From Hyphomicrobium sp. (GTDB lineage Bacteria > Pseudomonadota > Alphaproteobacteria > Rhizobiales > Hyphomicrobiaceae): 64,000 nucleotides of DNA. The notes below the pieces were generated by a model that searched no databases, had not been told where the DNA came from, and saw only the letters and a list, made by a program, of their open reading frames with translations. Both the position numbers and the translations under genes were made by a program. The stretch lies in NCBI GenBank assembly GCA_013141015.1, contig JABFRT010000039.1, forward strand, positions 1 to 64,000, in the 5' to 3' direction. This document shows positions 4,449 to 21,114 of the stretch, one piece after another (positions within the stretch are counted from its first letter, which is position 1; each line of letters opens with the position of its first letter).

Positions 4449-5108
4449 GTGCAGACTACCGGGGCGGCCCTTCCAGACGATCTGGCCGTTTTCCAGGACC
4501 ACGGCTTGCGATGCGAGTTTGTTCACTTCGCTTGCGTCGTGCGTGACATAGAGCATTGGAATGCGGAATTCGTCTCTCATGCGTTCGATCAGCGGAAGAA
4601 TTTCTTCCCGGCGGCCTGCGTCAAGGCTGGCGAGCGGTTCATCGAGCAATAGAATTTCAGGCCCTGAGAGCAGAGCACGCGCCAGCGCAACACGCTGTCT
4701 CTCGCCACCTGACAAACTAGGTGGCCGCCTATCCGTCAAATGGCTGATGCCCAGAACATCGACGACGGATGATTGTGAAACAATGCGCTTGCCGCCGGGT
4801 GCAAACCACCGGCCGAAATTCAAGTTCTGACCAACTGTCATGTGCGGGAAAAGCTGCGCATCCTGAAATACAATCCCGATCCGCCGCTTATGTTTTGGCA
4901 CCCAAACTTTGCGCTCTGTATCGACGAGGGTTCGGCCATCGACCGCAATCCGGCCGCGCGTTGGGCGCACCAAGCCCGCAATAAGTGCGAGCAATGTTGA
5001 TTTTCCAGAACCTGATGGACCGAATAGGGCAGTAATCCCTGCGCCGGCCGTGAAGCTTGCATTGAGGCAGAAGGTCTTTCTTTGCAGATGCACATCAACA
5101 TCGATCAT
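4398..5108 (-). CDS. modC: Molybdate ABC transporter ATP-binding protein, short form
   Basis: 236 residues with a full ABC ATPase core: Walker A GPSGSGKST, Q-loop VFQDAQLFPHMTV, signature LSGGERQRVALARAL, Walker B LLLDEPLASLD and the H-loop YVTHDASE. It energises molybdate import with ModB and ModA encoded directly upstream. Usual ModC proteins are about 350 residues and end in a TOBE/Mop domain that binds molybdate; this one stops just after the ATPase core. The gene overlaps the 3' end of modE in convergent orientation, and 12 bases separate it from modB. Confidence 0.92.
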   Translation of the reverse strand: MIDVDVHLQRKTFCLNASFTAGAGITALFGPSGSGKSTLLALIAGLVRPTRGRIAVDGRTLVDTERKVWVPKHKRRIGIVFQDAQLFPHMTVGQNLNFGRWFAPGGKRIVSQSSVVDVLGISHLTDRRPPSLSGGERQRVALARALLSGPEILLLDEPLASLDAGRREEILPLIERMRDEFRIPMLYVTHDASEVNKLASQAVVLENGQIVWKGRPGSLHSRPELLPDAKPLFHKS

Positions 5109-5120
5109 GGCCGAGCCTAT

Positions 5121-5783
5121 TCATGACTCGAAAACAGCAACGCGGCGCTGCATCCGCCGATTGAGTGCTTCAGACACAACCATTGCCGCCAACGCGATGG
5201 CCGTCGAAACCAGCATCAGGCGGATGGCAGCCTCGTCGCCCCCGGGGACCTGCGTGTAGCTATAGATAGCCGCCGAGATGGTCCGGGTTTCCCCAGGAAT
5301 ATTGGAGACGAAGGTAATTGTTGCTCCGAATTCGCCAAGCGCTTTGGCGAAGCAGAGAACGACCCCCGCGAGCACGCCGGGCAGAGCAAGTGGCAGTGTC
5401 ACCAAAAAGAATGCCCACACGCCATTGGCGCCGAGCGTACCAGCGGCCGCTTCAAGTCTCTGATCGACGCTTTCGAAAGACAGCCGGATCGCCCGCAACA
5501 TCAGAGGGAATCCCATCACAGCGCACGCAAGTGCAGCACCTGTCCACCGGAACGAAAGGTTGATACCGAAAGTGTCGAACAAAAACGATCCGATTGGCCC
5601 CCTCTTGCCAAAGGCCAGCAGCAGAACGTAGCCAGTGACGACCGGTGGCAAGACCAGTGGCAAGTGTAAAACAGCATCGACAAGCGCTTTTCCGGGAAAC
5701 TGGTATCGCGCGAGCAGATACGCAAAGGCCATTGCGACGGGCAAACAGAATGCAGTTGCCAGGCACGCAATGCGCAGGCTCAA
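5121..5783 (-). CDS. modB: Molybdate ABC transporter permease
   Basis: A multi-span membrane protein with the EAA loop (LEAAAGTLGANGVWAFFLVT) and the ModB-typical LPLVLPPVVTGYVLLLAFG and KALGEFGATITFVSN segments. The annotated start at 5783 is TTG and is probably not real: in-frame codons continue upstream as DDWTAIELSL, the usual ModB N-terminus (commonly MDWTAI). No ATG, GTG or TTG lies in that frame before an upstream stop. An ATG at 5803-5801 sits one base out of frame, as if one G were missing after it. A rare ATC start at 5813 behind AAGGAG is the other option. Confidence 0.88.
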   Translation of the reverse strand: MSLRIACLATAFCLPVAMAFAYLLARYQFPGKALVDAVLHLPLVLPPVVTGYVLLLAFGKRGPIGSFLFDTFGINLSFRWTGAALACAVMGFPLMLRAIRLSFESVDQRLEAAAGTLGANGVWAFFLVTLPLALPGVLAGVVLCFAKALGEFGATITFVSNIPGETRTISAAIYSYTQVPGGDEAAIRLMLVSTAIALAAMVVSEALNRRMQRRVAVFES

Positions 5784-5870
5784 CTCAATCGCGGTCCAAT
5801 CATCCGGTGAGATAGCTTCACTCCTTGTCTTGGCAAGAATTCAGTCATTTGGGGCTCGCTCGGCACGGCG

Positions 5871-6677
5871 CTATTTTGACAGAACCTTGAAGCCCTCCTT
5901 TTCAAAACGTGACTTGGCTTCTGCGGACTGAAGATACGTCAGAAACGCATTTGCCGCTTGAGAGTCCCTCGCCAACGCCAATGCCGCAAACGGATAGACG
6001 ATCGGCGGATGGGTATCTTCAGGAAAAATATCAACAATTTTGACTTTTGGCTCGGCAAACGCATCGGTTTGATAGACGATCCCGAAACCGGCTTCTCCGC
6101 GCGCGACCAAAGCAAGCGCGGCTCGGACATTTTCCATCTGAGCGACCTTCGGTTCCACAGCCGCCCAGACACCCAGTTTATCCAGTGCCGCCCGACCGTA
6201 TTTACCTGCTGGCACAGATTTCACTTCACCCATGGCCAGCTTACCGTTGCCGATCGCGTCGGCCAACGCAAAGTCTTTGGCGATCTTGATCGAAGCCGAT
6301 GACTCAGCCGGCGCAACGAGCACCAGCCGGTTGCCGAGCAGATCAACGCGCGTATCGTCCTTAATGAGACCCTTTTGCGATATGTAGTTCATCCATTCAA
6401 GATCGGCTGAAACGAAGATGTCGGCGGGTGCCAATTGTTCGATCTGCTTTGCAAGCGCTGAAGAAGCCGCGTAAGAAATGATGACCTTCGATCCCGTAGC
6501 TTTCATATAGCTGGCGGTCACCGCGTCCAGTGCGGTCTTGAGACTGGCTGCAGCAAAGACAGTGATATCCTTTTTTTCAACCTCCTGAGCAACAACCGGA
6601 GAAGTCACTGAAGCCCATGCCAACAAGGCCGTCACTCCGGCCACAACCTTCAGTGTCAACTTCGTGACGCCGCGCAT
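5871..6677 (-). CDS. modA: Molybdate-binding periplasmic protein
   Basis: 268 residues with a signal peptide ending near VVAQ-E. ModA family motifs are FAAASLKTALDAV at the N-terminus of the mature protein, ADIFVSADLEWMNYI, VPAGKYGRAAL and GIVYQTDA. It binds molybdate or tungstate in the periplasm and hands it to ModB/ModC, encoded downstream on the same strand. Next to nifW-fixABCX, molybdenum supply for nitrogenase is a natural role. A candidate ModE-like dyad lies 49 bases before its start. Confidence 0.94.
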   Translation of the reverse strand: MRGVTKLTLKVVAGVTALLAWASVTSPVVAQEVEKKDITVFAAASLKTALDAVTASYMKATGSKVIISYAASSALAKQIEQLAPADIFVSADLEWMNYISQKGLIKDDTRVDLLGNRLVLVAPAESSASIKIAKDFALADAIGNGKLAMGEVKSVPAGKYGRAALDKLGVWAAVEPKVAQMENVRAALALVARGEAGFGIVYQTDAFAEPKVKIVDIFPEDTHPPIVYPFAALALARDSQAANAFLTYLQSAEAKSRFEKEGFKVLSK

Positions 6678-6725
6678 CTGCCAACCCTGTTAGCTACCCA
6701 CTTATCCTGCAATATTACCACTAGA

Positions 6726-6741
6726 CTATATCGCTTTATAG
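6726..6741. promoter_or_regulatory. Candidate ModE-box-like dyad before modA
   Basis: CTATA-TCGCTT-TATAG is an inverted repeat with 5-base arms, 49 bases upstream of the modA start. ModE boxes are TATA-rich dyads in front of mod operons, so position and composition fit. The match to a strict consensus is only partial. Confidence 0.4.
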
Positions 6742-6803
6742 AACCCGCAAGCATTAATTGCATTGAGACCTGCGTTGTCTCACTGCCTGTACTTACGAAG
6801 GTG

Positions 6804-7106
6804 CTAGCCGAACTTGAAGAGGACCCCGTATCCGCCGCGCGGATAATTCCATTCGATATCGCCCGACAATTCAGCGATCACCCGGCACGTGCCGCACTCC
6901 ATGCATCCATCGGGGATGATTTCAACCTGCCCGCTATCATTGAATGCATAGCAACCCGCCGGACATACTTTGGTCAACGCTACGAGAGCGTCGGAGGGCA
7001 CGGCGTGCGGTGTAACTTTGATATGTGGCCGGCCCGCATCGACCAAATAGCGGTTTTGGAAAAGCTTCTCTTCGACTCGTGCCGCTGTTCCGCCGGAAAT
7101 TGCCAT
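6804..7106 (-). CDS. fixX: FixX ferredoxin-like protein
   Basis: 100 residues with the FixX/ETF-QO ferredoxin pattern: [10 protein letters not shown], then a [11 protein letters not shown] cysteine cluster, then the closing [15 protein letters not shown]. It carries iron-sulfur centres of the Fix complex and passes electrons with FixC to quinone. GGAGC precedes the ATG. It is the last gene of fixABCX, 55 bases after fixC, and lies directly upstream of the modA promoter region. Confidence 0.93.
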
Positions 7107-7161
7107 TTGAAGCTCCTATTGTGGGTTAACAGTCAAAAAGGTTTAGTCACAATGTGACCGG

Positions 7162-8460
7162 CTAACGCCAGCCGCGTGCGATACTGAACATGTCGCTCAA
7201 CAGGCCGAAGCGGCGCGACTTGACGAATGACTTGGCGATCTCGTTTTCTTTGGATTTCTTGTCGATGCCATCGACGCGAAACCACGTCTGCATGGCTTGA
7301 TTGAGGAGCTTCGGATAGGTTGTGAACAAATGCTTGTTGTGCAGCGCCTTTGGAAGATCCTTGTATTTTTTCATGTCCTTCATCACGAAGGTCTCATCGA
7401 GCATCTTCTTGTAGAGTGAGAGGTTCTCAGCCGTCGGTGCTTCGCGACGGGATTTGACTTGGAATATAGCTTCGGCCGCGATGCGCCCGGTCGTCATGGC
7501 AAGGTTGGAACCTTCCCGATGCACCGCATTGACGAACTGCCCTGCATCGCCGACGATCACCCAACCGTCACCGAACAGTTTGGGAATTGCCTTGTATCCA
7601 CCCTCCGGGATCATGTGGGCAGCGTACTCTTTAATCTCCGATCCAATCAGCAATGGCGCAACAGAGGGATGAGCCGCAAAATTCTCAAGCAGGCCGTAGG
7701 GCGTTTCTTTGGTCTCAGCGAAGTCCGAAATCAGGCAACCTATCCCAACCGAGAGCGATTCCTTGTTGGTGTAGATGAACGCCGTGCCCGTCATGCCTTT
7801 TGTGATGGTGCCGGCGGCTTCTATCACAAGCCCCTCGTCGCCAGTGAGATTGAAGCGCGATTCAATGGTTTCGCGCGGTAGGAAGTGCATTTCCTTGACC
7901 GCAAGAGCCACTGACGAAGGGCTTGGTACGCCACGCAAACCCGCGCGCTCCCCGAGCAAGCCATTGACGCCTTCGGCGAGCACCACAACATCGCACTTGA
8001 TAAAGCCACCGATCCGGTCAGTCCGAACGCCGATTACGCGGCCATCGGGTTCTTGCACGAGTTCCGTGACCGTGGTTTCGCAGATGACCAGTGCGCCGGC
8101 ACCTTGCACGCGTTTAGAAAACCATTTATCGAACTGCGCGCGAATGATGGTGTAGCGGTTCGGATTCTCCTCGTTAAAGTCCTCTGAACGGTACTGCATG
8201 CCGGAACTTGAGCGATCATCCATCATCCAGATGCGTTGTTCGATGATGTGGCGTTCAAGTGGCGCGTCTTCGCGGAAATCCGGAATCAGCTTTTCGAGCG
8301 CGTCGGCGTACAGGATTGCGCCTTGCACATTTTTCGAACCCGGATATTCACCGCGTTCTAGCTGCAAAACTTTCATACCGCGATTTGCCATTGTAAAGGC
8401 GCAGGCATTGCCTGCGGGGCCAGCCCCTATCACGATCGCGTCAAATTTTTCTTCGAGCAT
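7162..8460 (-). CDS. fixC: FixC flavoprotein, ETF-quinone oxidoreductase-like
   Basis: 432 residues. The N-terminal FAD-binding site is [20 protein letters not shown], and the second FAD contact is [20 protein letters not shown]. The family signature [18 protein letters not shown] is present. FixC is the membrane-associated quinone-reducing arm of the electron-bifurcating FixABCX complex, which uses NADH to reduce both quinone and a low-potential ferredoxin or flavodoxin for nitrogenase. TGAGGA lies just upstream of the ATG, and the gene follows fixB by 9 bases. It is intact. Confidence 0.94.
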
Positions 8461-8469
8461 GTTTGGTCC

Positions 8470-9573
8470 TCAGCTGGCTAAGCGATTGACAAGCAGGCGG
8501 GCGCGGAACGCTTCGGTCAATGCCGGCAAGATACGCATCGCGTCCGCTACCACTCCAACGTGGGCGAAATCGAAAATCGGAGCGTTCTTGTCGGTATTAA
8601 TGGCGACGATGAGATCTGCTCCTTCGACACCAACGCGATGCTGAATGGCGCCCGAAATGCCAGCGGCGATATAAAGCTTCGGCCGTATTGTTTTGCCGGT
8701 TTGGCCAATTTGGCGATCTGTAGTCATCCAGCCCTTCTGTACGGCAGGGCGTGAACAGCCGTATTCGGCGCCGAGAACTTCAGCAAGCCGCTTGATCAAC
8801 TGGACATTCTCCGCTGATTGCAGACCGAGCCCGCCAGCGACCACGATGTCGGCATAGGCGAGGTTCAATTTTGCTGTCGATCGGTCTGGCAGAAATGACA
8901 AGATCTTTGTAACGACACTGTCCTCGGTGAGATCTGGCTTCACTTCGATCACCCGGCCACTTCGACTTACCAAACGTTCCGGCATCGACATCACGCGCGG
9001 CCGGATCGTCGCCATCTGCGGGCGAAAGTTAAGTGTGTAGATGGTGAATAATAACGATCCGCCGAACGTCGGCCGCGTCGCGGCAAGCGAGCCGTCCTGA
9101 TCGACCGCGAGTTCGGTGCAGTCCGCGGTCAATCCCGTCAGTAAGGTTGTCGCAACAGAGCCGGCGAGATCCCGCCCAAGCGTGGTCGCGCCTAGAAGCA
9201 GTATCTCCGGCTTATACGTGTTGACGAGATTGGTGAACACACGGGCATAAGGGTCATTGCGATAGTCTGCGAGAACCGGATCTTCGACGATGTACGTAAC
9301 ATCGGCGCCATATGCGAAGCACTCTGATGCCGCGGCCTTGGCAGCGCCTCCCGGCGGGCCCATCACCACGCCCGCCAGTTCAACGCCAAGTTTGTCAGCG
9401 AGCTTGCGGCCTTCCCCCATCAGTTCCCACGATACGGGGTGAACTTCGCCACGTTCCATTTCCACGAACACCCACACGTGCTTGTAGGCTTTAAAATGGT
9501 CGGACAATTCCTTCTTCATGCCCGCGCGGCCCCCAGCTGCGGGTGCGACTGGTTTTGGTGCGTCGGTCGTCAT
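8470..9573 (-). CDS. fixB: FixB, electron transfer flavoprotein alpha subunit
   Basis: 367 residues from the ATG at 9573, which has AGGAGG 6 bases upstream; an upstream open stretch to 9603 is not needed. The C-terminal ETF-alpha FAD domain is clear: [57 protein letters not shown] and [20 protein letters not shown]. It forms the bifurcating ETF with FixA, encoded 40 bases upstream. The frame is complete, unlike that of its partner fixA. Confidence 0.94.
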
Positions 9574-9613
9574 AGCGTGCCTCCTGAACTTGACTGCGTA
9601 CATTCGCGCGGCG

Positions 9614-10469
9614 TCAGTAGCCAGCTGCGGCTTTTTGAAGTTCGTCTTCGAGCCCTGACAGCCGCGTGAAAATCGCGGCCATCAAGGCTTCCCCTGCCTC
9701 ATCGTTCCTCATGCTCGAAACGTCGACAATCTGGGCTTTATCCGCGCGCGCCGCCGGCGCAAACACGCGCTTTACGACAGTCGGCGAGCCTTTGAGACCG
9801 CACTTTGTAAGGTCTGCGATGCCAGCTTCCGCAGCAGACCACTTGGTCACTTCGGCGCGCGCGGCGCGGAACGCATCGGCCATCGAACCGCGCCTGATAT
9901 CATTGGTGCCTTCGAGCATAGTGATCAGGCATGGCAGCTTGGTTTTTTGGAACCTGGACGCCGCCTTCGGCCCGTCGCTCGACCGTGATTTCACCGTTTA
10001 CATGATCGACATTCGCGATTTTCGAAACGTAGGTCAGCTGGTTGAGATCGAGACGCTTGGCGATGCCTGGCCCCACCTGAGCCGTGTCACCGTCAATCGT
10101 CTGCTTGCCGGTGAAGACGATTTCAGGTTGCCCCCAGGTGGCTGCAATCTTGGCAATGGCCGATGACAGCGCAAACGAGGTTGCGAGCGTATCGGAGCCG
10201 GCAAAGAAGCGATCCGTCAACAGCACCGCGCGATCGGCTCCGAACGTCATCGCCTTGCGCAGACTGTCCTCGGCCATTGGCGGGCCCATTGTCAGCACGG
10301 TCACTTCGCCGCCGTGCTCGTCACGCAATTGCAGTGCCTGTACGAGTGCGAATAAGTCGTAGGGCTTGATAATCGTCGGCACGCCCTGCCGCATGATCGT
10401 GTTGGTGACGGGATGAACGCGGATCTGCGCCGAGTCCGGCACCTGCTTGTTGCAAACGACGATGTGCAT
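9614..10469 (-). pseudogene. fixA: FixA, ETF beta subunit, with a single-base frame break
   Basis: Start at 10469 (MHIVVCNKQVPDSAQIRV, GAGGAGA upstream). The first 170 or so residues are a normal ETF-beta: FTGKQTIDGDTAQVGPGIAKRL and ITVERRAEGGVQV. At the A6 run (plus-strand T6 at 9943-9948) the frame is lost and would stop at 9900. The remainder (KLPCLITMLEGTNDIRRGS to the stop at 9614) is intact one frame over. The total is 856 bases, 285 codons plus one, so one extra A explains it. This is a real mutation, a slippage site or a sequencing error; other fix genes are intact, which favours an error or recent event. Confidence 0.85.
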
Positions 10470-10507
10470 CCTATGTCTCCTCGGTTGCCCTCTCACTAAA
10501 GAGGATG

Positions 10508-10522
10508 GCAAGCCTCGTGCCA
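10508..10522 (-). promoter_or_regulatory. Sigma-54 (-24/-12) promoter of fixABCX
   Basis: On the minus strand the bases read TGGCAC-GAGGC-TTGC, an exact TGGCAC-N5-TTGC match, ending 38 bases before the fixA start codon. Sigma-54 promoters of this form drive nif and fix operons together with NifA. Confidence 0.85.
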
Positions 10523-10617
10523 ATTTCGGCGCAATTTTGAATGCTCATAGAATTCAGTTGGTTGCGATGTTTTCACAAATTACCTTGGTCGTGCGATACC
10601 CCACATCTCTGTCGCCT

Positions 10618-10633
10618 TGTCGGGTATCCGACA
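10618..10633. promoter_or_regulatory. NifA upstream activator site
   Basis: TGT-CGGGTATCCG-ACA matches the NifA consensus TGT-N10-ACA exactly, within a longer dyad (TTGTCGG-GTAT-CCGACAA). It lies about 95 bases upstream of the -24 element of the fixA promoter, within the usual range for NifA. Confidence 0.8.
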
Positions 10634-10679
10634 ATCGATGAAGTGCCTGGTGAGGCGCGATGCAACGCGCAAAGAAGCG

Positions 10680-10702
10680 CCGCCGGAGATAAACTCCAGC
10701 GG
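10680..10702 (-). terminator. Hairpin downstream of nifW
   Basis: On the minus strand CCGCTGGAG and CTCCGGCGG pair at eight of nine positions around a 5-base loop, 27 bases after the nifW stop. There is no strong T-run, so it may be a weak terminator or a processing hairpin between nifW and the fixA promoter. Confidence 0.35.
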
Positions 10703-10728
10703 ACAAGGCGTGACTGATGCAGGGCTTG

Positions 10729-11042
10729 CTATTCCCGTTCGGCGATAGGACCTGAAGTCTGGCCTTTGCGTCTCATGTCCACTCCTGAAGGTGGTTGCTG
10801 GAGCGGGCCAAAGTTCTCAAATTCCTGGTAGGCCGCTCGTTTTGACCGGCATGCGTTGATGGCGGACACGATTGGGAAGCCCACCCGCCATCTCCGGCCA
10901 GATGTTCTCCCATGCGTTTCAAGATGTGGAGGCGAGCGACGGACACTACGGCAGGATCGAATGGTAAGCCGAGGCCAACAAAAAAATCTTCAGCTGACGA
11001 GTATGCCTTGAGCTGGCCAAGGGCGTCCTTCTCATAAGCCAA
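10729..11042 (-). pseudogene. nifW: NifW, nitrogenase-stabilising protein, frame-broken
   Basis: The first part reads LKAYSSAEDFFVGLGLPFDP, then VVSVARLHILKRMGEHLA, the NifW N-terminal signature. Near 10870-10885 the NifW pattern moves to another frame (SAINACRSKRAAYQEFENFG), which runs to a stop at 10729; the unshifted frame stops at 10773. The span of 314 bases is one short of whole codons, so a single missing base fits. The listed start is a TTG; an ATG a few bases downstream is out of frame, as if a G were missing after it. NifW protects nitrogenase from oxygen damage. The nifW-fixABCX order is typical of rhizobial nitrogen fixers. Confidence 0.78.
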
Positions 11043-11045
11043 TGG

Positions 11046-12672
11046 AATGCCGCCTCGTCCACTGCCGACGAATGATCTTCGATAACTCCTGGTTCTCGCG
11101 CCATTACGGGGTCAAACACAGTTCCAGGTTTCGCCGGCGCCGTATTGGCGAGCGCATAGAAGCTGTATCCAGGGGCCGTTCTGGCGGTTCGGATGAACCG
11201 CGCTTTTCGCTCGGTCAGTTGCCCGTTCAGGGGCTGACCACTCAAATGCGCGCCGACCACGGCAACTTCAATTTGCTTTGCGGTGGTGGCCCGCACATCG
11301 ACCGGGGCGTTGACGAGGGCGAATGGCGTTGCTCAAGGCTCACCTCGCCAAGCTGCCGGTGCAATTGATCGCCCATCAGAGCCAAATCGCCGTCGCCGCC
11401 CGCTGGCGCCATCAGCGTCACACCAAAAGGCAGCCCGTCCGGCCGGAAACCCGCCGGAACAGCCAGCGCAGCTAGATCCATCAGATTGACGAAGTTGGTG
11501 TACAGCCCAAGATTTGCATTGAGGCGCACAGGATCTGCTAGAACCTCGGCAATTTTATAGGTTGTCGGTGCCGTCGGCAGCAGCAGCATGTCCATCTTCT
11601 GCCATTCGCGTCCGGCCTGCCGCGCCAGTTCAGCGAGCCGGTAGAACCCTTCGAAGGCATCGACGGCACTGATGTTTTGTGCGGCGAGAATGATATTGCC
11701 CACCGTCTCATGCATCGCGTCCGGGTGGTTGTGTGCGAAAAGTTTGATTGCTGCCAGGCGCTCGGCCACCCAAGGGCCTTGATAGAGAAGCTGCGCGGTC
11801 TGTTGAAACGCTGAGAAATCGATGTTTACGATTTCCGCGCCAAGTGCCCGGGCACGTCCGACGGCCTTCTCATAAAGCGCGGCGGCCGCCTGATCGCCAA
11901 AAAATTCAAGCGGCGCCCTTGGAACACCAATTCTGGTTGCACCGTTGCGTGCACGCCCGGAATCGAGCGCCTCTGTGCGGCGGGCATAAGCGTCGTCATC
12001 ATCAAAGTGAGACGCGGCGGCAAATACGCGCCGAGCATCCGAAACGGTTAGCGCAAAAATCGACACGGTATCTTGTGTCCGGCACGCTGGCACAACGCCG
12101 CGCGTGCTGATCAACCCCTTACTTGGTTTCAAGCCGACGATGTTGTTGAAAGCCGCTGGCACCCGGCCAGATCCAGCGGTATCCGTACCAAGGGCGAACG
12201 ACACCAGCCCGCTCGCCACGGCAACTGCTGACCCTGAACTCGAACCGCCACTGATATAGTCTCTATTGAATACGCTTGACGGCGCGCCGTAAGGCGAGCG
12301 CGTGCCGACAAGGCCGGTTGCAAACTGATCGAGGTTCGTCTTGCCGATGACGATGGCGCCTTCGGCTTCAAGCCGCTCGACAACAAACGCTGAGCGCGCA
12401 GGGTAATTCAAAAAGGCCGGACACGCGCACGTCGTCGCAAGACCTGCAACGTCGATATTATCTTTAACGGCAAATGGAATACCATAGAGTGCCCCCCTTG
12501 GTGCATTTACGGCACAGGCCAAGGCCTGCTCACGGGATCGCTTCGAAATCCACACCGCTTGCTCGCCTTGCGCTTCGATGCGGTCATAGACCTCGTTGAT
12601 AACGTCTCGTGGCGCAAACGATCCTCCACTGTACCCGGCCGTCAATGTGGCGATGTCCAAGGAAATTGTCAT
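11046..12672 (-). pseudogene. atzF: Allophanate hydrolase, frameshifted and C-terminally truncated
   Basis: Start at 12672, overlapping the carboxylase stop by 4 bases. The amidase domain is clear: AVKDNIDVAGLATTCACPAF with the catalytic Lys, and SGGSSSGSAVAVASGLVSFA with the Ser-cisSer region. Near 11325-11335 the match moves to a second frame (VAVVGAHLSGQPLNGQLTER, then ARFIRTARTAPGYSFYAL). That frame loses similarity near 11050, where nifW begins, so most of the roughly 80-residue C-terminal domain, which decarboxylates the intermediate, is missing. It would convert allophanate to ammonia and CO2 as the last step of guanidine or urea use. As read it is probably non-functional. Confidence 0.85.
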
Positions 12673-15600
12673 AGCACGGCCTCACTAGCATGGGCCTTCA
12701 TCACAATCAGCGTTTGACCGAGAGCGACTGGTTTGCCTTCACCGCAGCGGATTTCCAAGACAATGCCATCGGACGGCGCGACAATCGACATTTCCATTTT
12801 CATCGACTCGACGACGACGACAACATCGCCAGCCGATATGTGCGCGCCTTCCTCAACCGTGATTTTCCATACACACCCGGGTACGGTACTTTCAATGGCG
12901 TGTGCGCCAAGCGGTATGGATTGATCATCCGTATCAACATCGCTGGAGGCCACGGCCGACGCCGATCGGTCCGATTCCTTCCAGCGCCCGCGCTCAGCAT
13001 CAAAGGCCGCCTGCTGGCGGAACTTTGCATCGCTGATCGCTGCCGCATTTGCCGCCAGGAAAGCGCGATAGTCTTTCATTGAGAAGGTTGTTTTCTCGAT
13101 GCGAATGGCAGATGTGCCATCGATCACACCATCGCGGATGCGGCTTAGATCGCTATTCGAGACGGAATAGAACTTCACCTGGTCGAAAAAGCGCAACAGC
13201 CATGGCTTACCGCCAGTGAATGCCGGCGTCCGGCGATAGGTGTTCCAGACTTGGCTGGTTCTGCCAAACAACTGATATCCGCCCGGTCCTTCCATGCCGT
13301 AGATGCACATATATGCGCCGCCAATGCCGACCACATTGTCCGGCGTCCAGGTCCGGGCCGGATTGTATTTGGTGGTGACAAGCCGGTGGCGTGGATCGAC
13401 CGGCGTTGCGACCGGCGCGCCGAGGTAGACATCGCCCAGCCCGAGAACCAGATAGCTTGCGTCGAACACGACGCGAAAAACATCGTCGATGCTATCCAGT
13501 CCATTGATGCGCCGGATGAACTCGATGTTCGACGGACACCACGGCGCATCGGCGCGAACCGATTGCATATATTTGTCGATCGTCAGCTGAACCGCCGCGT
13601 CATTCCAGGACAACGGCATATGAACGAGGCGGGACGGCACTTCAATATCGCCGGTATCGCCGATGGCGTCTTCGATGGCCGAGAGTTCAGCAAGCAGAGA
13701 CTCGAGGGACAGAATGCGGCTGTCGTAGTGAATTTGCAGCGAGCGGATGCCCGGTGTTACATCGATAACGCCACTGAGGGCGCGCGCCTCAAGACGCGTC
13801 ATCAGAACATGAATGCGGAAGCGCAATTCCAAATCGAGGACGATTGGTCCGTATTCGACGAGCAGATATTTATCACCCGCGCGCCGGCAGATGATGCGTG
13901 GCCGCTGTGCGGTCGCCTCGCGCATCGCGACGATGCAGTCCATCGAGCCCGCCGTCGCCTGAACCGGACCGGGTCTAATCGTTTGCGGTTGCAGCGTCGC
14001 AATTTCGGCATCCTGCATTGCTTCCAGCGCTGCCGCCTGTTCGGCGGACAATTGTTTGAAGCGGACTTTGTTTCCAGGCTTCAACTGGCCGATTTTCCAA
14101 AGCTCAGCATGCACAATCGTTGCCGGGCATACAAACCCGCCCAGCGATGGTCCGTCCGGCCCGAGGATCACCGGCATGTCACCTGTGAAGTCGATTGCGC
14201 CGATGGCATAGGCATTGTCGTGAATGTTGCTGGGGTGCAGTCCGGCTTCACCTCCATCAGGCCGCGCCCATTCCGGCTTCGGTCCGATCAGACGAATGCC
14301 GGTGCGGTTTGAATTGTAGTGCACTTCCCAGGTGGCATCAAAGAATGCTGAAATATCGGCGGCCGTGAAGAACTCCGGCGCACCGTGCGGACCGTAAAGT
14401 ACACCGATTTCCCAAGTCCCGGACAATTGCGGCTTAACACTTGGCGGCAGCTCTGCGGTCTTAGATAAAACATTGAGCGGCGGCGCAAGCCGCAGAACAT
14501 CACCGGTCCGCAGTATCCGGCCGCCGTGACCTCCGAACTGTCCGAGCGTAAACGTCGACTTGCTGCCAAGATAATCCGGCACATCGATCCCACCTTGCAA
14601 CGCAAGATAGGTTCGCAACCCCGGCCCCCGAATGGCTCCACATTTCAGACTTTGACCTTTACGGACGTCAAAAGGCCTGCCATTGGCGACGGGTTCTCCG
14701 TCGAGTGCCGCCTCCATATCAGCGCCCACAAGACAGCCGACCGTGCTGCAATTGAATTTGATGTGTGGACCCGACAGCGTCATCTCCAGCGCTGCCGTAC
14801 CTTGGCTATTGTCTACAGCACGATTGGCAAGACGAAACGACAGATGATCCATCGGTCCTGACGGTGGCACACCGACATTCCAATATCCGGTGCGTCCAGG
14901 ATAATCCTGTACCGTCGTCAGCGTGCCCGGCGCCAAGATCTCCAATGTCTCCGGGGCATACGCGAAGGTTGCAAGCGTCGCGGTCGTCATTTGACCGGCG
15001 GTGAAAACCGTCGCGCGCGCAAGTTCGGTCAAGTATCCAAGATTGGTTTCGATGCCGGCCAGCTGCGTGGCGTGCAAGGCGGCGTTCATTTTCGACAGCG
15101 CTTCCGTGCGGTCTTTGCCGCTGACAATAATCTTGGCAATCATCGGATCGTAATAGGACGAGACGTCCGTGCCACTCTCAACCCAGGTCTCGACGCGGGC
15201 ATCTGCGGGCCATGCAACGTGCGTCAGTTGACCGGCACTCGGACGAAAACTGCGCGCCGGATCTTCGGCATAGACGCGCACCTGGATCGATGCCCCGCAT
15301 GGCTGCGGGATAGCATCGGGTAACGGTTCACCCGCGGCCTGCCGGACCATCCACTCGACCAGATCAACACCAGTAACTTCTTCGGTGACGCCGTGCTCGA
15401 CTTGCAGACGCGTGTTGACCTCAAGGAAATAGAATTCACCTGTATCGGTGTCGAATAGATATTCGACGGTTCCGGCGTTGGCATAGTTGACGACTTCGCC
15501 GAGGCGGACAGCGGTATCGAGTAGCTTCTTGCGTGTTGTATCATTCAACCCAGGAGCCGGGGTCTCCTCAATCACCTTTTGATTGCGCCGCTGCGCTGAA

Positions 15601-16283
15601 CAATCACGCTCGCCAAGTGCGACGACGCGGCCTTTCCCATCACCGAAGATTTGCACCTCGATGTGCCGGCCCCGGGCGACGAACTTTTCAACGAACACGC
15701 CGTTGTCCGCGAAATTGTTGGAGGCCAGTCTTTGAACGCGCTCGAACGTTGCCGGCAGATCGGCTTCCGTCTCTACAAGCTGCAAGCCGATTCCGCCGCC
15801 GCCGGCCGTGCTTTTGAGCATCACCGGATAGCCGATGCGCCGGGCTTCTCGCGCGGCGTCATGCGCCGTTGCAACAAGCCCAGACCCCGGCGCCAGCGGC
15901 ACGCCAGCTTTCGCCGCCAGTTCGCGCGCCGTATGCTTCAAGGCAAACGCCCGCACATGCGCTGGTTCAGGCCCTATGAAGGTTATACCGGCCGCGGCGC
16001 AGGCTTCGGCGAACGTGGTGTTTTCCGACAGAAAGCCGTACCCGGGATGGATCGCCTCGGCGCCTGTCGCTTTGGCCGCGGCCAATACGGCTGCAACATC
16101 GAGGTACGATTGTGCTGCAGGTGCAGGCCCGATGCGCACGGCTTCAGTTGCCATGCGTACATGCCGCGAGTGGCGGTCTGCATCGGAGTATATCGCGACG
16201 CTTTTGATGCCCATGCGGTCGAGCGTGCGGATAATGCGGCAAGCGATAGCGCCACGATTGGCGATCAGAACTTTCGAAAACAT
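12669..16283 (-). CDS. Biotin-dependent guanidine (urea-type) carboxylase
   Basis: 1204 residues. The biotin carboxylase domain is at about 1-450 (ATP-grasp; MLKSTAGGGGIGLQ, HIEVQIFGDGKGRVVALGER, FYFLEVNTRLQVEHGVTE). The carboxyltransferase-type AHS2/KipA and AHS1/KipI modules span about 455-1060 (LGPDGPSLGGFVCPATIVH; NVVGIGGAYMCIYGMEGPGG). A C-terminal biotinyl domain carries VVESMKMEMS with the biotin lysine. The family was named urea carboxylase, but copies in operons with a guanidine-I riboswitch and CgdAB act on guanidine, giving carboxyguanidine. That context is present here, so guanidine is the likelier substrate. The gene is intact. Confidence 0.92.
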   Translation of the reverse strand: MFSKVLIANRGAIACRIIRTLDRMGIKSVAIYSDADRHSRHVRMATEAVRIGPAPAAQSYLDVAAVLAAAKATGAEAIHPGYGFLSENTTFAEACAAAGITFIGPEPAHVRAFALKHTARELAAKAGVPLAPGSGLVATAHDAAREARRIGYPVMLKSTAGGGGIGLQLVETEADLPATFERVQRLASNNFADNGVFVEKFVARGRHIEVQIFGDGKGRVVALGERDCSAQRRNQKVIEETPAPGLNDTTRKKLLDTAVRLGEVVNYANAGTVEYLFDTDTGEFYFLEVNTRLQVEHGVTEEVTGVDLVEWMVRQAAGEPLPDAIPQPCGASIQVRVYAEDPARSFRPSAGQLTHVAWPADARVETWVESGTDVSSYYDPMIAKIIVSGKDRTEALSKMNAALHATQLAGIETNLGYLTELARATVFTAGQMTTATLATFAYAPETLEILAPGTLTTVQDYPGRTGYWNVGVPPSGPMDHLSFRLANRAVDNSQGTAALEMTLSGPHIKFNCSTVGCLVGADMEAALDGEPVANGRPFDVRKGQSLKCGAIRGPGLRTYLALQGGIDVPDYLGSKSTFTLGQFGGHGGRILRTGDVLRLAPPLNVLSKTAELPPSVKPQLSGTWEIGVLYGPHGAPEFFTAADISAFFDATWEVHYNSNRTGIRLIGPKPEWARPDGGEAGLHPSNIHDNAYAIGAIDFTGDMPVILGPDGPSLGGFVCPATIVHAELWKIGQLKPGNKVRFKQLSAEQAAALEAMQDAEIATLQPQTIRPGPVQATAGSMDCIVAMREATAQRPRIICRRAGDKYLLVEYGPIVLDLELRFRIHVLMTRLEARALSGVIDVTPGIRSLQIHYDSRILSLESLLAELSAIEDAIGDTGDIEVPSRLVHMPLSWNDAAVQLTIDKYMQSVRADAPWCPSNIEFIRRINGLDSIDDVFRVVFDASYLVLGLGDVYLGAPVATPVDPRHRLVTTKYNPARTWTPDNVVGIGGAYMCIYGMEGPGGYQLFGRTSQVWNTYRRTPAFTGGKPWLLRFFDQVKFYSVSNSDLSRIRDGVIDGTSAIRIEKTTFSMKDYRAFLAANAAAISDAKFRQQAAFDAERGRWKESDRSASAVASSDVDTDDQSIPLGAHAIESTVPGCVWKITVEEGAHISAGDVVVVVESMKMEMSIVAPSDGIVLEIRCGEGKPVALGQTLIVMKAHASEAVL

Positions 16284-16288
16284 TTGGC

Positions 16289-16936
16289 TTAAGCTCCCTC
16301 GCCCCAGATCAACACCTCGACCGGCGTCGGGTTATAGGCGTTGCATGGATTGTTCAGCTGCGGGCAGTTGGAGATAAGAACGATGACGTTCATCCCGGCG
16401 CGCAATTCCACATATTTGCCCGGCCCCGACATGCCATCGGCGAATGTCAATTTCCCGTCCGGTGTGACCGGCACGTTCATGAAGAAATTGATGTTGTGGG
16501 CGATGTCGCGCTTCGTCAGGCCAAACTGTTCGTTCTCGGCGACCGCGAGGAGAAAGCTGTCGCGGCACGCATGCATACATTTCTTCTCAAGCGCATAGCG
16601 GACCGTATTGCTTTCCGTCGCACAGGCGCCGCCAAGAGTGTCATGTCGCCCGACAGTGTCAGCTATCACTGTCAGCATGTGCCGGCAGCGGTCTGACAGA
16701 ATGCGCGTGCCAGCCCCGATATAGACATTGCCTTGCTCGCGGATCGTATCGCACGCGGAATAGCGTTCATGCGGATCGTCCGCATTGTAGAACAGCGTAT
16801 CGGCAGCCTGATTGCCTTCAAGGTCGACGATACGCAGCGCTTGTCCGCGCTTGACGACATGCATCCAGTAGTCACCAGCACCGATCGTCTGGCGATACGC
16901 CGCGTCTGCGGCCTGAAGTGTGCTCTCCTTGATCAT
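16289..16936 (-). CDS. DUF1989 protein, carboxyguanidine deiminase subunit (CgdA/CgdB type)
   Basis: 215 residues from the ATG at 16936, with TGAGGA upstream; the frame is open further to 17023. DUF1989 motifs: [20 protein letters not shown], then [39 protein letters not shown] and [20 protein letters not shown]. Formerly called urea carboxylase-associated protein; the heteromeric pair hydrolyses carboxyguanidine to allophanate and ammonia. It is encoded 5 bases before the carboxylase and just after its paralogue. Which of the two is CgdA I cannot decide from sequence alone. Confidence 0.88.
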
Positions 16937-16947
16937 CGCACTCATCC

Positions 16948-17670
16948 TCAGCCGCAACCGCATGCGTGATACAGTCTGGTGTTTTCGAATCCCCGGCCGT
17001 TCTCGGCCGCCGACAGCCGGCACGCATCGCCAGGCGACGCAGCCGTGCCTTGGAAAATTTCAAAACGCACCGGTTTGCGGGGATAGTGCGCTGACGGGTT
17101 GAGCGGATGCGGACAAGTGTGCATCAGCACCAGCGTGTCCATCTCGAAGCGAAGCTCAACCTTTGCGCCTGCGCGTGCGGCGGACGCGTCATAGGCAAGC
17201 GCTCCGCCTTCCGCAACAGTAACTTTGCTGAACCAATTGACGTTGGCCGCCAGATCACGGCGGCTCATGGCGTACTTCGCGGCCTCAACGAGAAAGCTGT
17301 CGTGGCCATTTTGCTGCCAATCGTTGCTGTGGGTCTGATAGGATGTAGCGCCCCATTTTTCTGCGACGCGCGCCTTGGTGGCATTGCCGCAAACCGTATC
17401 GTGCCACCCAAACGTGTCGGACGTGATTGAGCAAAATATCCGGCCCATATCCGAGTAAAGGCAGTGCCCGGCGGTCAGCTTGAACGTATGCTGGCACTTC
17501 AACGTATCGGGCGCATTGTAACGCTCGGCAAGATTCAATGGATTATAGAACAGCATGCCCGCGTTGGCGCCACCGTCGATATCGGTCAAGCGCAGAACCG
17601 CGTTCCGCCGCATGACGAAGGACCAGTGCTTACCCGGCAGCAATGTGTCCGCGTACGAATCCGTTTCCAT
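16948..17670 (-). CDS. DUF1989 protein, second carboxyguanidine deiminase subunit
   Basis: 240 residues from the ATG at 17670 behind GGGAGGT. It is a paralogue of the next gene: [20 protein letters not shown], then [21 protein letters not shown] and [19 protein letters not shown]. Cysteine and histidine residues in the [11 protein letters not shown] block are well placed for metal binding or catalysis. It should act with the neighbouring DUF1989 protein to deiminate carboxyguanidine. Its C-terminus (YHACGCG) ends in an unusual cysteine pair. It lies 114 bases after the ABC ATPase gene. Confidence 0.88.
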
Positions 17671-17784
17671 CCTATGACCTCCCTTGCCGGACACGCACGA
17701 CGGCGCGCGCCCAAAAGTTCCGGGCCGTCCCGGGTTTGAGGAAATCCGTCTGGGCCGTCCCAGACGGAATTGAAATAGCGCATC

Positions 17785-18609
17785 TCAGTCTGGCGGCTTC
17801 ACCGCAGATTGAGACGGAGCGCCGGCAATGCGCGGCGGCCATATTGCAATGTCACGCGTGATGGTCGCGCCTTGCGTTTCTTTCGGGCGCTCATCGTCGC
17901 GCGCCAAATCCCCCGAGAGCGTCGCGCCAAATCGCTCCAATTCTTCCGGCCGGTTGCGCGGGCGCTCGAAAGCAATCACCCGCGTGGCCAAGCGGAATGC
18001 TTCGCTAAGATCGTGTGTGACCATAACGACCGTCAAATCACTGGCGTTCCAAATGCGGCGGATGAGAACGTGAATATCGGCGCGGATGCCAGGATCGAGC
18101 GCACCGAAGGGTTCATCCAGCAGCAGCACCTTTGGCCGGCAGATCAATGCTTGCGCCAGCGCCAGGCGTTGCTGCATGCCGCCTGAAAGTTCGGCTGGAT
18201 ATTTACCTTCATGGCCGCCGAGCCCCACGTCCGCCAGAATTTGCAAAGCATCCGCGCGGGCAGCTGCACGCCGGTTGCCAAACAGGCGGCCGAGCAGCGG
18301 CGACTGCTCCAGCTCACGGCCCAGCATGACGTTGCCAAGAACGGTCAGATGCGGAAATACCGAGTAGCGCTGAAACACGACGCCGCGGTCTTTATCCGGT
18401 TCAGGCTTCAGCGGCACGCCGTCCAGCAGGATCCGTCCACGGGTCGGCACGTCGTCACCGAGCAGCATTCGCAGGAAGGTGGTCTTGCCGCATCCCGACG
18501 GTCCAACAAGGGCCACGAAGGAGCGCGAGGCGATTTCAAGATCGAGCCGCTCCAGGACAACGGTGGCGCCGTATTCCTTCCAAACTTTTTCGAACGTAAT
18601 CGCGGTCAT
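17785..18609 (-). CDS. Guanidine-operon ABC transporter ATP-binding protein
   Basis: 274 residues from the ATG at 18609, overlapping the permease stop by 4 bases. ATPase motifs: GPSGCGKTTFLRMLLG, VVFQRYSVFPHLTV, LSGGMQQRLALAQAL, LLLDEPFGALDPGIR and MVTHDLSEA. It belongs to the nitrate/sulfonate/taurine-type group. With the adjacent permease and binding protein it forms the importer usually found in carboxylase operons, here probably for guanidine or a related amidine. The C-terminal 50 residues are specific to this subgroup. Confidence 0.9.
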   Translation of the reverse strand: MTAITFEKVWKEYGATVVLERLDLEIASRSFVALVGPSGCGKTTFLRMLLGDDVPTRGRILLDGVPLKPEPDKDRGVVFQRYSVFPHLTVLGNVMLGRELEQSPLLGRLFGNRRAAARADALQILADVGLGGHEGKYPAELSGGMQQRLALAQALICRPKVLLLDEPFGALDPGIRADIHVLIRRIWNASDLTVVMVTHDLSEAFRLATRVIAFERPRNRPEELERFGATLSGDLARDDERPKETQGATITRDIAIWPPRIAGAPSQSAVKPPD

Positions 18610-19424
18610 GCCGACCTCGCTGCCGCAAACCACGGGAAGGCTTTGCGCTGCAGAACCCGCAAGGCGAGATCCATAAGAAACGCGAGCAGCGTGATCCAGA
18701 TGACGTAGGGAATAATCACATCCATCGACAAATAGCGGCGCACGAGAAAAATCCGGTAGCCGAGGCCGGAGTCCGCGGCGATCGCTTCCGCCGCAATCAG
18801 AAACAGCCACGCAGGACCGATCTCCAGCCGGACGGCATCAATCAAGCGCGGCAGCATTTGCGGCAGCACGACGCGCAACGCGATTTGCCAAGTTGATGCA
18901 CCGAGCGTTTGCGCCTTGATGATCTGCTCACGTGGAATTTCCTGGACACGCAGGACTAAGTCCCGGATCAGCTTCAGCGACGTGCCAACAACGATCAGCA
19001 TGATCTTCGAGGCTTCGCCAAGCCCCATGATGATGAATAAAATCGGCAGCAGCGCCAATGGCGGAACCATTGAGGAGACAGCAACCACCGGCCCAAGAGT
19101 GGCGTTAGCCACCGGCAACAGGCCGATCACGATGCCGGCAACCAAGGCGATTGCCGTCGATATGGCCAGCGCCGACAACAGCCGCACGAGACTCGCGGCG
19201 GTGTCGGACCACATCAAATAGAGCCCGGTGCGCTGGTCGGGGGTTAGGGCGTACTGCCCAACCGCCTCAGCCATCGCCCCGACGCCCGGCAGCAGCTTAT
19301 CATTCGGATTTACAGCCAGGCGCGTGTGCGAGCCCCACAGATATGCGAGCATCAAGAGTACAAACGGCAGGCACGCGAGCGCAATCCGCCACGTCGTATC
19401 GGGCTTTATATTGATCGCGCGCAT
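18606..19424 (-). CDS. Guanidine-operon ABC transporter permease
   Basis: 272 residues, about six membrane segments, with the permease loop EIPREQIIKAQTLGASTWQI (EAA-like) and the terminal LRVLQRKAFPWF. It is the TauC/SsuC type. It is translationally coupled to the ATPase gene by a 4-base overlap and follows the binding-protein gene by 48 bases. Substrate inferred from the operon. Confidence 0.9.
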   Translation of the reverse strand: MRAINIKPDTTWRIALACLPFVLLMLAYLWGSHTRLAVNPNDKLLPGVGAMAEAVGQYALTPDQRTGLYLMWSDTAASLVRLLSALAISTAIALVAGIVIGLLPVANATLGPVVAVSSMVPPLALLPILFIIMGLGEASKIMLIVVGTSLKLIRDLVLRVQEIPREQIIKAQTLGASTWQIALRVVLPQMLPRLIDAVRLEIGPAWLFLIAAEAIAADSGLGYRIFLVRRYLSMDVIIPYVIWITLLAFLMDLALRVLQRKAFPWFAAARSA

Positions 19425-19472: not shown

Positions 19473-20537
19473 TCACAGCCGGCCGTCGGCAGCCGCCTTC
19501 ATGAATGCCGCGTCGTAGCGCAGCTTTACGTTGGCCTTGTCGCCGAACACTGTCTTGTCGGGGAATTCAACACCGATGGCAGCGGCCGATTTTGCGTCCT
19601 TGCCAAGCAGCGCCTTGTCGAACAGGAATTTGGACACCCGCTCGGTCGTCGTTTTGAGATCTGCGCCGCTGGTGAAAGCGACGGCATCCGCGGGTGCAGC
19701 GAACAGCTTGGTTGTCGCCAGCTGTTCTTCAAAGCCCTTGAGATCGGTTCCCGAAGCCTTGGCCATCGCTTCCTTGGCGTCGTTGCCTTTGCCAAGCGCC
19801 GCCATGGTGTCATACCAGATCCCGGCAAGGGCCTTGGCGAAGTTCGGATTGTCTTTCACGACGTCAGTGTTGGCGACCATAAGGTCAATAATTTCGCCTG
19901 GGATCTGCGAACTATCGAATACCTTTTTGGCGTCCGGCGATTCAAGTATCGTCGAGACGATAGGCTTCCAGGTGACAACCGCCGTGACGTCCGCCGTCTT
20001 GTAGGCCGCCGCCATATCGGCGTCCGACGTGTTGACAACCTTCAGATCTTTTTCCTCAAGCTTGGCGGATTCGAGTGCGCGGGCCAGGAGGTAATGAGAA
20101 ACGGAAAACTCAACCAGATTGACGTTCTGGCCTTTGATGTCTGCAAGCTTCTCCTTGCCCTTGAGGATCACGGCATCGTTGCCATTTGAGAAGTCGCCGA
20201 CAATGACGGCCGTCGTATCAACGCCGCCGGCTGCCGGAATGGACAACGCATCCATGTTTGTCACCGTCACCGCGTCGAATGCGCCGGCGGTGTATTGGTT
20301 GATCGACTCGACGTAATCGTTGAACTGCTTGACTTCGATCTTAATGCCGTATTTGTCGGCCCACTTCTTGACGATGCCCGTGTCTGCGGCATAGCCCCAC
20401 GGCATCCAGCCGACATAGATCGACCAGGCGACTTTGAAATCTTTCTTTTCAGCGGCAACGGCTGGCGCGGCGGCCAACGTTGCAGCGACCGCGATGGCCG
20501 CTATGCCTTGTGAAATTTTGCAGATGAAACGGTTCAT
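19473..20537 (-). CDS. Guanidine-operon ABC transporter substrate-binding protein
   Basis: 354 residues with a signal peptide (cut near AVA-AE). The mature start FKVAWSIYVGWMPWGYA is typical of the binding protein next to urea/guanidine carboxylase, of the NitT/TauT fold; later blocks include VNLVEFSVSHYLLARAL and VTWKPIVSTIL. It is the first gene after the guanidine-I riboswitch, whose 3' end lies 117 bases upstream, so its expression should rise with guanidine. Confidence 0.9.
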   Translation of the reverse strand: MNRFICKISQGIAAIAVAATLAAAPAVAAEKKDFKVAWSIYVGWMPWGYAADTGIVKKWADKYGIKIEVKQFNDYVESINQYTAGAFDAVTVTNMDALSIPAAGGVDTTAVIVGDFSNGNDAVILKGKEKLADIKGQNVNLVEFSVSHYLLARALESAKLEEKDLKVVNTSDADMAAAYKTADVTAVVTWKPIVSTILESPDAKKVFDSSQIPGEIIDLMVANTDVVKDNPNFAKALAGIWYDTMAALGKGNDAKEAMAKASGTDLKGFEEQLATTKLFAAPADAVAFTSGADLKTTTERVSKFLFDKALLGKDAKSAAAIGVEFPDKTVFGDKANVKLRYDAAFMKAAADGRL

Positions 20538-20596
20538 CGATAACCCCTGTGCTGACCACTCTGCGCCGTGGCCGCAAAAACATCGGGATCATGAGG

Positions 20597-20648
20597 GGAA
20601 GGGTGCAACGCATATTGGGAGCCCTTCCGCTCAAGAGCTCGCGCTCTT
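20597..20648 (-). promoter_or_regulatory. Leader hairpins after the guanidine-I aptamer
   Basis: Between the aptamer and the first gene the minus strand has two inverted repeats: AAGAGC-GCGA-GCTCTT (20633-20648, tetraloop) and GGAAGGG...CCCTTCC (arms 20622-20628 and 20597-20603). Neither is followed by a clear T-run. They may form part of the expression platform. Confidence 0.4.
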
Positions 20649-20654
20649 TGCGGC

Positions 20655-20768
20655 GTAGGTCTCCCGGGCTTTTGTCCCGCCGTGGCTCCGTTCCGCGTGA
20701 CGCCGAACGGGAGTGCCTCTCTCGGACCAGTCACGGCAGTTTTGCAGCTGCCGCCGGAACCCTAGAGG
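20655..20768 (-). promoter_or_regulatory. Guanidine-I (ykkC) riboswitch aptamer
   Basis: On the minus strand the conserved blocks of the ykkC/guanidine-I RNA occur in order: CTAGGGTTCCG, then ACTGGTCCGAGAGA, then CACGGCGGGACAAAAGCCC and GGGAGACC. These are the ligand-binding core of the class that senses free guanidinium and switches on detoxification or degradation genes. It lies upstream of the transporter-CgdAB-carboxylase operon, which is the strongest evidence that the operon works on guanidine rather than urea. Confidence 0.95.
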
Positions 20769-21059
20769 CGTTATAATTGCTACACTGCACGCCGCGTGCC
20801 ACGTCGATGCCCCCGAAAACATGGGACTTGCGCCAAGCCCCCGTGTGGCAAATGCCTGCTTTTTGACTTCACCGCCCAGCAGCTGAGCAATATGCTTCCG
20901 CAACACAACGGCGTTGCGCCAGCCTCGGTCGCGGCACCCATTCGGGGCGCACCCGGTACAGGCCCGCCCGCGTTTTGCGATACTCCTGAAGCGTAAGTCG
21001 TTGAGGAATATGCCCGGCTGAATGGAAATCCTGGCTGGGGTGCCTCTGCAATAGAATTG

Positions 21060-21088
21060 TTGGCACCATCCTTGATGGATGGTGCCAA
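21060..21088 (-). terminator. Terminator hairpin after the cytochrome b561 gene
   Basis: A perfect 12-base inverted repeat (arms 21060-21071 and 21077-21088) with a 5-base loop, 27 bases after the stop of the minus-strand cytochrome gene. The following bases on that strand are only moderately T-rich (CAATTCTATT). Confidence 0.65.
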
Positions 21089-21114
21089 CACGGCAGCGGG
21101 CATACGAACAAATG

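Follow-up and report, generated by a model that had tools for sequence, protein, structure and literature searches.

What does the guanidine-I riboswitch of this Hyphomicrobium sp. locus control, and by what means? The DNA considered here, referred to as the window, is the stretch of 64,000 nucleotides at positions 1 to 64,000 of contig JABFRT010000039.1. The initial annotation of the window placed a guanidine-I aptamer ahead of a complete guanidine-degradation operon.

A guanidine operon behind a guanidine-I aptamer

A covariance-model search with RF00442 bore out the proposal of a guanidine-I riboswitch ahead of the operon. The match covers the whole model (positions 1-107), lies above the gathering score of 63 bits and is the only one across the genome (Table 1). 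The span first given for the aptamer, 20655-20768, was right as to the locus and a few bases off. From the match to RF00442, the aptamer is predicted to bind guanidine. On the minus strand it is followed, in this order, by a TIGR03427 binding protein, a permease, an ATPase, UAAP1, UAAP2, a TIGR02712 carboxylase and an allophanate hydrolase, and the transporter, two DUF1989 genes, carboxylase and allophanate hydrolase were therefore described correctly from the start. The two DUF1989 proteins (we take DUF1989 to be the family COG3665) are of both kinds expected for CgdAB, as one scores above the cut-off of TIGR03425 and the other above that of TIGR03424, and they adjoin the carboxylase. The start of UAAP1 was placed at the ATG at 17670, picked by the SD sequence GGGAGG ahead of it. 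Among the named loci, the nearest carboxylases are those of two Hyphomicrobium MAGs (78% and 71%).

The operon is one for guanidine assimilation in a Hyphomicrobium-like alphaproteobacterium, a kind of operon that is already known. Its ABC importer, with a TIGR03427 binding protein inside the operon, is likely a guanidine importer, in line with the candidate put forward at first. By analogy with the known pathway, guanidine would be imported, carboxylated, deiminated to allophanate and hydrolysed.

Table 1. Features of the guanidine locus in the window
Feature	Position	Strand	Basis or remark
Sigma-54 (-24/-12) promoter TGGCACGCGGCGTGCA	20786..20801	-	11/12 consensus positions
Guanidine-I riboswitch aptamer (RF00442)	20659..20776	-	82.5 bits, E 7e-14
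Leader / proposed translational expression platform	20538..20658	-	comparison of aligned leaders
ABC substrate-binding protein (TIGR03427), probable guanidine binding protein	19473..20537	-	544 bits, cut-off 334
ABC permease (BPD_transp_1)	18606..19424	-	family match
ABC ATPase	17785..18609	-	ATG at 18609
Guanidine-II riboswitch aptamer (RF01068, mini-ykkC)	17720..17766	-	42.8 bits, gathering 32 (whole-window scan)
UAAP1 / carboxyguanidine deiminase subunit gene (DUF1989)	16948..17670	-	TIGR03425 318 bits, cut-off 206
UAAP2 / carboxyguanidine deiminase subunit gene (DUF1989)	16289..16945	-	TIGR03424 336 bits, cut-off 285; ATG at 16945
Guanidine carboxylase, 1204 aa, D698 + D951	12669..16283	-	profile match + residues
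Allophanate hydrolase, 476-aa ORF: amidase domain, then out of frame	11242..12672	-	NF006043
Allophanate hydrolase C-terminal domain remnant, other frame	11042..11272	-	last 53 of 127 residues unmatched
Broken nifW remnant abutting operon end	10893..11033	-	further piece, other frame, near 10860

The broken end of the operon

Is the operon complete? That part of the initial annotation is not supported, because a frameshift interrupts the allophanate hydrolase and its C-terminal domain lacks the end; the amidase domain remains. The amidase domain is matched over residues 3-449 (NF006043, 628.6 bits, cut-off 487). The C-terminal domain does not continue in frame, and 74 of its 127 residues, measured against the domain of a relative, are found in another frame. 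When the relative's domain was searched against the genome, this partial match came up and no second one. The open frame of the hydrolase has 479 codons in the window, and at least 600 in 42 of the 50 matches (from 48 of 102 family genomes). The eight shorter frames are those of the window, of G053 (at a contig end) and of six more distant copies with 48-54% identity (346-575). The truncated enzyme may be functional even as an amidase domain alone. AtzF shortened to 467 residues has been found as active on biuret as the full-length protein.

The region at 4398-11033 contains ETF/fix-type genes, a ferredoxin-like gene, a broken nifW and an apparently split fixA, and a molybdate-type transporter was read there from Pfam hits. 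The ETF-type genes beyond nifW were read as fixA, fixB and fixC, and fixA seems to be split over two overlapping frames, of which Pfam detects the first only. A fixC product together with NifW occurs in two of 22 genus genomes, the window's own and G045, near nifH in the latter. A nifH match above the cut-off was found in G045 only and none in the window's genome. The region resembles what is left of a nif island, and a rearrangement joining the operon to this decaying island fits the break best.

An error of assembly or sequencing, in an operon that is in fact complete, could also produce the break. Several frame breaks fall close together, at 9.9-11.3 kb (in the allophanate hydrolase, in nifW and probably in fixA), that of fixA lies, by eye, beside an A6 run, and the genome is a 69-contig draft, 97.6% complete; however, the neighbouring 1204-aa carboxylase frame is open, and the two halves that a wrong join would have left behind are absent from the assembly, because the genome holds a single partial C-terminal match and no nifH above the cut-off. 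Such an error is rather unlikely, if well within the range to be reckoned with, and a rearrangement next to the decaying nif island is the preferred reading of the operon end.

A sigma-54 promoter next to the aptamer

Two control elements were overlooked in the initial annotation, the guanidine-II aptamer inside the operon and a sigma-54 promoter in front of it all. The consensus for sigma-54 is GG-N10-GC within TGGCACG-N4-TTGCW. TGGCACGCGGCGTGCA agrees with this consensus, and 10 nt separate its GC from the start of the aptamer. Two sites in the 64 kb, both strands considered, score at least 11, namely TGGCACGCGGCGTGCA and one upstream of fixA. The second sigma-54-like site, TGGCACGAGGCTTGCC (10507-10522, minus strand), agrees at 11 of 12 positions and serves as a fair positive control.

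Further evidence comes from the family, in which 30 of the 34 guanidine-I matches were fetched with their leaders. The motif stands 10-13 nt before the aptamer in all 30 leaders. It scores at least 10 in 29 of them, with 0-3 of 200 letter shuffles as good; the score in L086 is 9, equalled by 13 of 200 shuffles. Among the other alphaproteobacterial loci the motif occurs at the same spacing in 10 of 12 (the exceptions are L016 and L030). In nine beta- and gammaproteobacterial loci it is farther off, at 38-53 nt, with L019 and L059 at 67-69 nt. The scan of these loci covered the 28 guanidine-I loci less L004, L018 and L040. At the level of sequence, then, the presence of a sigma-54 promoter is shown, and transcription would start at about the first base of the aptamer, since the spacing from the -12 element is the usual one. 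Because the promoter is of this type, the operon is probably transcribed when nitrogen is short.

No NtrC-like site better than shuffles was found in the 300 bases upstream of 43 loci. In the available part of a sigma-54 regulon study, 102 COG3665 genes are predicted to be under sigma-54, 59% of them annotated as urea carboxylase, and the word 'guanidine' was not found in its main text. Likewise, the available part of a study of the Burkholderia cenocepacia NtrC regulon lists urea carboxylase and related genes, and 'riboswitch' was not found in the main text.

A leader that probably acts on translation

How would the guanidine-I aptamer act on the genes behind it? The initial annotation noted two extra hairpins of unclear role in the leader. 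A role can now be suggested for them: they probably form a translational expression platform, in which a decoy strand and the SD compete for one anti-SD strand. In the window, the decoy GCCGCAAAGA comes directly after the aptamer, the anti-SD strand is UUUUUGCGGC, with GAUCCC before it, and the SD (AGGGG) lies 6 nt ahead of the ATG. In the absence of guanidine, a helix called H1 (aptamer tail GGGAG with CUCCC) would trap the strand after the aptamer, and the anti-SD strand would cover the SD. In its presence, the aptamer would keep its tail, the decoy would pair with the anti-SD strand and the SD would be open. In this way the guanidine-I leader would most likely govern translation of the importer genes.

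Evidence for the helices comes from an alignment (A2) of 23 leaders, which are related by shared ancestry. It consists of L003 and the 22 of 30 family leaders that have a binding protein of roughly 75% identity or above; the eight more distant ones were left out. H4, the pairing of the SD with the upstream anti-SD strand, has 87.6% of its cells paired, and 29.6-49.6% when one strand is slid. Two-sided changes occur at four of its pairs, a number matched by 53 of 500 shuffles and raised to five by a slide of +1, and its share of paired cells under shuffling is 85.7% against the observed 87.6%. H5, the pairing of the decoy with the same anti-SD strand, is 76.6% paired, and 39.4-47.9% when slid. 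It has five pairs with two-sided changes, which 4 of 500 shuffles reach, and 12 further pair types against 8.4 in shuffles, which none of 500 reach; its paired share of 76.6% compares with 73.9% in shuffles (6 of 500 as good). H1 joins the aptamer tail GGGAG to a nearly constant CUCC and takes the base that closes the aptamer helix P3. Because its strands are nearly constant, it offers no covariation evidence. Cognate duplexes beat swapped ones for both H5 (183 of 20000 permutations as good) and H4 (344 of 20000). Pairing is poor in L003 and L108, where 282 and 40 of 300 shuffles are as good.

The same three-strand logic is spelled in different letters in other Alphaproteobacteria, as AAGGGAU / AUCCCUUUU / AAAAGGGG in Rhizobium and as GGGUUGGCG / CGCCAACCCC / AGGGGUUGG in Niveispirillum. 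In a search of single sequences, the pattern reached p <0.05 in 12 of 35 leaders, comprising 7 of the 12 outside the family and 5 of the 23 of Hyphomicrobium type; the window's own leader did not reach p 0.05. For Hyphomicrobium, the comparison of sequences was relied on instead. The 12 outside leaders are those kept after exclusion of L061, whose leader is cut short. This Rhizobium lemnae leader (5743 onward) ends after the decoy and has no anti-SD strand, by deletion or by a fault of assembly.

What does folding add? H1 and H5 are mutually exclusive in the folding model by construction. In all 23 leaders, P3 with its closing pair is less favourable than H1 when H1 has just been completed. 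In transcripts ending at the anti-SD strand, the probability of H5 averages 0.76 when folding is free and 0.91 when P3 is forced; with P3 forced it is at least 0.97 in 21 of 23, or in 20 of 23 when the count uses four fixed pairs. Forcing P3 leaves the SD more open than forcing H1 does in 19 of 23 leaders (means 0.34 vs 0.17). In full leaders with P3 forced, H5 reaches at least 0.9 in 12 of 23, and 0.15 in the window. For the whole leader of the window, the proposed ON form has -97.4 kcal/mol, against -101.1 for the aptamer with a closed SD. Equilibrium folding was rejected as proof of a switch on these results; a guanidine-dependent switch of the window leader is not predicted at equilibrium, and a kinetic switch is therefore plausible. 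Support for the helices comes from conservation and, for H5, from compensatory changes; the direction of switching and its dependence on the ligand, which we infer, would probably be kinetic.

One possibility is that guanidine-I acts here on transcription, by intrinsic or Rho-dependent termination, and that the SD hairpin is secondary. The class is usually described as transcriptional in the available part of a review (PMC12186494), and the accessible text on V. boliviensis presumes the same of its guanidine-I (PMC12508155). The betaproteobacterial leaders L006 and L015, read by eye, have a classical terminator using GCCCGGGAG. Leaders of Rhizobiales type have, by eye, a U-run after the decoy helix, which could itself be a terminator; the sign of the switch would then be reversed there. 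The window speaks differently: its SD sits in the conserved hairpin H4, and a terminator scan, which counts loops of 3-8 only and would miss long ones, detected, from the aptamer to the start codon, no stem followed by a U-run. The candidate of an intrinsic terminator in the window leader was rejected, as all three hits of the scan lie upstream of the aptamer. One terminator-like stem, at 21058-21090, precedes the sigma-54 site, as would be expected of one that ends the gene before it. For L026, the anti-SD/SD hairpin was the only hit, the loop of the decoy helix being too long for the scan. Rho-dependent effects on the leader may occur. Overall, control at transcription is judged rather unlikely for the window, and the translational platform is the reading kept here.

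A guanidine-II aptamer between importer and catabolic genes

The second sensor class was found between the ATPase and the first cgd gene, with a score above the gathering threshold of RF01068. Is the pairing of the two classes common? In a survey of 103 family genomes, 32 have guanidine-I and 47 have guanidine-II, and a comparison of the two match lists by hand placed guanidine-II 2-5 kb downstream of guanidine-I, on the same contig and strand, in 28 of the 32 guanidine-I genomes. The genomes without such pairing are G004, G014, G084 and G100; G084 has its two aptamers on separate contigs, and the aptamer of G014 is near a contig end. Among 30 guanidine-II matches fetched (of 56), 24 lie between the ATPase and UAAP1. 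At the other six no operon gene was matched, and the next reading frame is, by eye, an SMR exporter. A scan of six named loci found both aptamers in five (Hyphomicrobium twice, Rhizobium, Phyllobacterium and Azorhizobium) and guanidine-I only in the sixth, Niveispirillum. L002 and L003 come from the same genomes as G051 and G057 and are not independent of them. The presence of guanidine-II ahead of the cgd genes is observed; its action would be a second guanidine check on the catabolic half.

Guanidine or urea as the substrate of the carboxylase

Two residues bear on the substrate. According to the available part of the comammox paper (Nature 2024, PMC11410670), Asp at K. lactis position 1584 is required and Asp at 1330 separates guanidine carboxylase from urea carboxylase. 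D698 of the window aligns to N1330 of the K. lactis urea amidolyase (5i8i), GAIDFTGD vs GAINFTGD, and D698 and D951 correspond to K. lactis 1330 and 1584, positions taken by counting in the 5i8i alignment. Both published residues and the DUF1989 pair agree with the initial assignment to guanidine carboxylation (CgdAB route) instead of plain urea use, and the residues predict a preference of the carboxylase for guanidine over urea.

The residue at 698 follows gene context. In an alignment of 72 carboxylase rows, window included, it is Asp in 50 of 51 loci with a UAAP2 match and Asn in all 13 loci where the carboxylase follows an allophanate hydrolase and UAAP2 is not matched. The other eight rows, which are the window (its neighbours unscored) and contigs that are cut before the neighbours or show none, have six Asp, one Asn and one gap. 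At position 951, all 72 rows have Asp. A column-wise search for other residues that split the contexts returned gap columns only, with cut contigs in the wrong group. A guanidine-I model built from 29 family aptamers, with an RNAalifold structure and not that of Rfam, matched 28 of 80 loci at E up to 0.1, and none of the 13 urea-type loci.

That the locus is instead a urea operon, with a urea carboxylase, a urea importer and incidental riboswitches, is suggested by NCBIfam names (TIGR02712 urea carboxylase, TIGR03427 putative urea ABC binding protein, TIGR03424/5 urea amidolyase associated) but is rejected as scarcely credible in view of D698 and D951, the DUF1989 genes, two guanidine riboswitch classes within one operon and the 13 urea-type loci that match neither UAAP2 nor guanidine-I.

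A sister clade with asparagine

Does the Asp/Asn rule hold throughout the family? Residue 698 is Asp in 26 of the 29 family carboxylases fetched and Asn in three (G047, G055 and G057), and all 29 keep Asp at 951. The three Asn carboxylases (L194, L181 and L200, respectively) form one clade with an SH-aLRT of 100 in a quick tree of 53 rows. In the tree it is placed beside the window and L002 and is distant from the urea-type clade. The clade retains guanidine-I, guanidine-II and both DUF1989 genes (L149, L159 and L162). It appears to be an exception to the published rule, which would label these enzymes urea carboxylases.

The importer of G055 and G057 (L003 6565-8429, L159, L162) shows no permease between binding protein and ATPase. 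Elsewhere in the same two genomes (L104, L106) there is another guanidine-I, whose binding protein is more distant.

The proposed circuit and what it would mean

Taken as a whole, the explanation offered here combines a sigma-54 start at guanidine-I, a translational leader, a guanidine-II check, a pathway from import to hydrolysis and a truncated last enzyme, and it is held with reasonable though not high confidence. More tentative, and short of an even balance, is the broader proposal of a three-input gate in Alphaproteobacteria, in which sigma-54 would be followed by guanidine-I acting on translation through an SD-mimicking decoy and then by guanidine-II metering the catabolic half apart from the importer, together with a sister clade in which the circuit is kept entire while the carboxylase has reverted to the urea-type Asn.

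What is new is the added layers of control, together with the probable translational platform, which departs from the usual terminator picture of guanidine-I; the operon kind itself is known. Among the titles and abstract openings listed in a literature search, with most subscription papers outside it, neither a link of sigma-54 with guanidine sensors nor a translational guanidine-I platform was found. Guanidine use would be coupled by the circuit to the nitrogen-type sigma factor, whose promoter keeps a fixed distance from the sensor. One can now test whether guanidine-I is able to act on translation and why a single transcript has two guanidine sensor classes. If the Asn reversion is true, either the published Asp/Asn rule is not absolute or the pathway there has switched substrate. 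In either case, the clade offers a natural test of the residue rule for annotating guanidine carboxylases.

Comparison with known systems

The carboxylase is homologous to the K. lactis urea amidolyase (5i8i; 1189 bits), from which the window differs by Asp, not Asn, at K. lactis 1330 and by the presence of DUF1989 genes. The aptamer fits the curated model of the guanidine-I class (RF00442). That class is usually a transcriptional ON switch according to the accessible part of PMC12186494, whereas in the window no terminator was found and a conserved SD hairpin faces a competing decoy.

As described in the same part of that review (PMC12186494), Raoultella terrigena and Klebsiella michiganensis resemble the window in having the importer under guanidine-I and the carboxylase and allophanate hydrolase under guanidine-II. 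In contrast, the deiminase goes with guanidine-I in these two species and with guanidine-II in the window, and in enterobacteria guanidine-II precedes the carboxylase gene, unlike in the window.

Another close layout is that of Vreelandella boliviensis, for which the available text (PMC12508155) reports growth on guanidine as sole nitrogen source and binding by its guanidine-I at about 44 micromolar. Its operon likewise has guanidine-I first, an internal guanidine-II, an ABC importer, cgdA/B, gca and atzF. However, guanidine-II stands there before gca and after cgdB, and mgdH/mgdL are added. In the window, guanidine-II stands between the importer and the cgd genes, and therefore all of the catabolic genes follow it.
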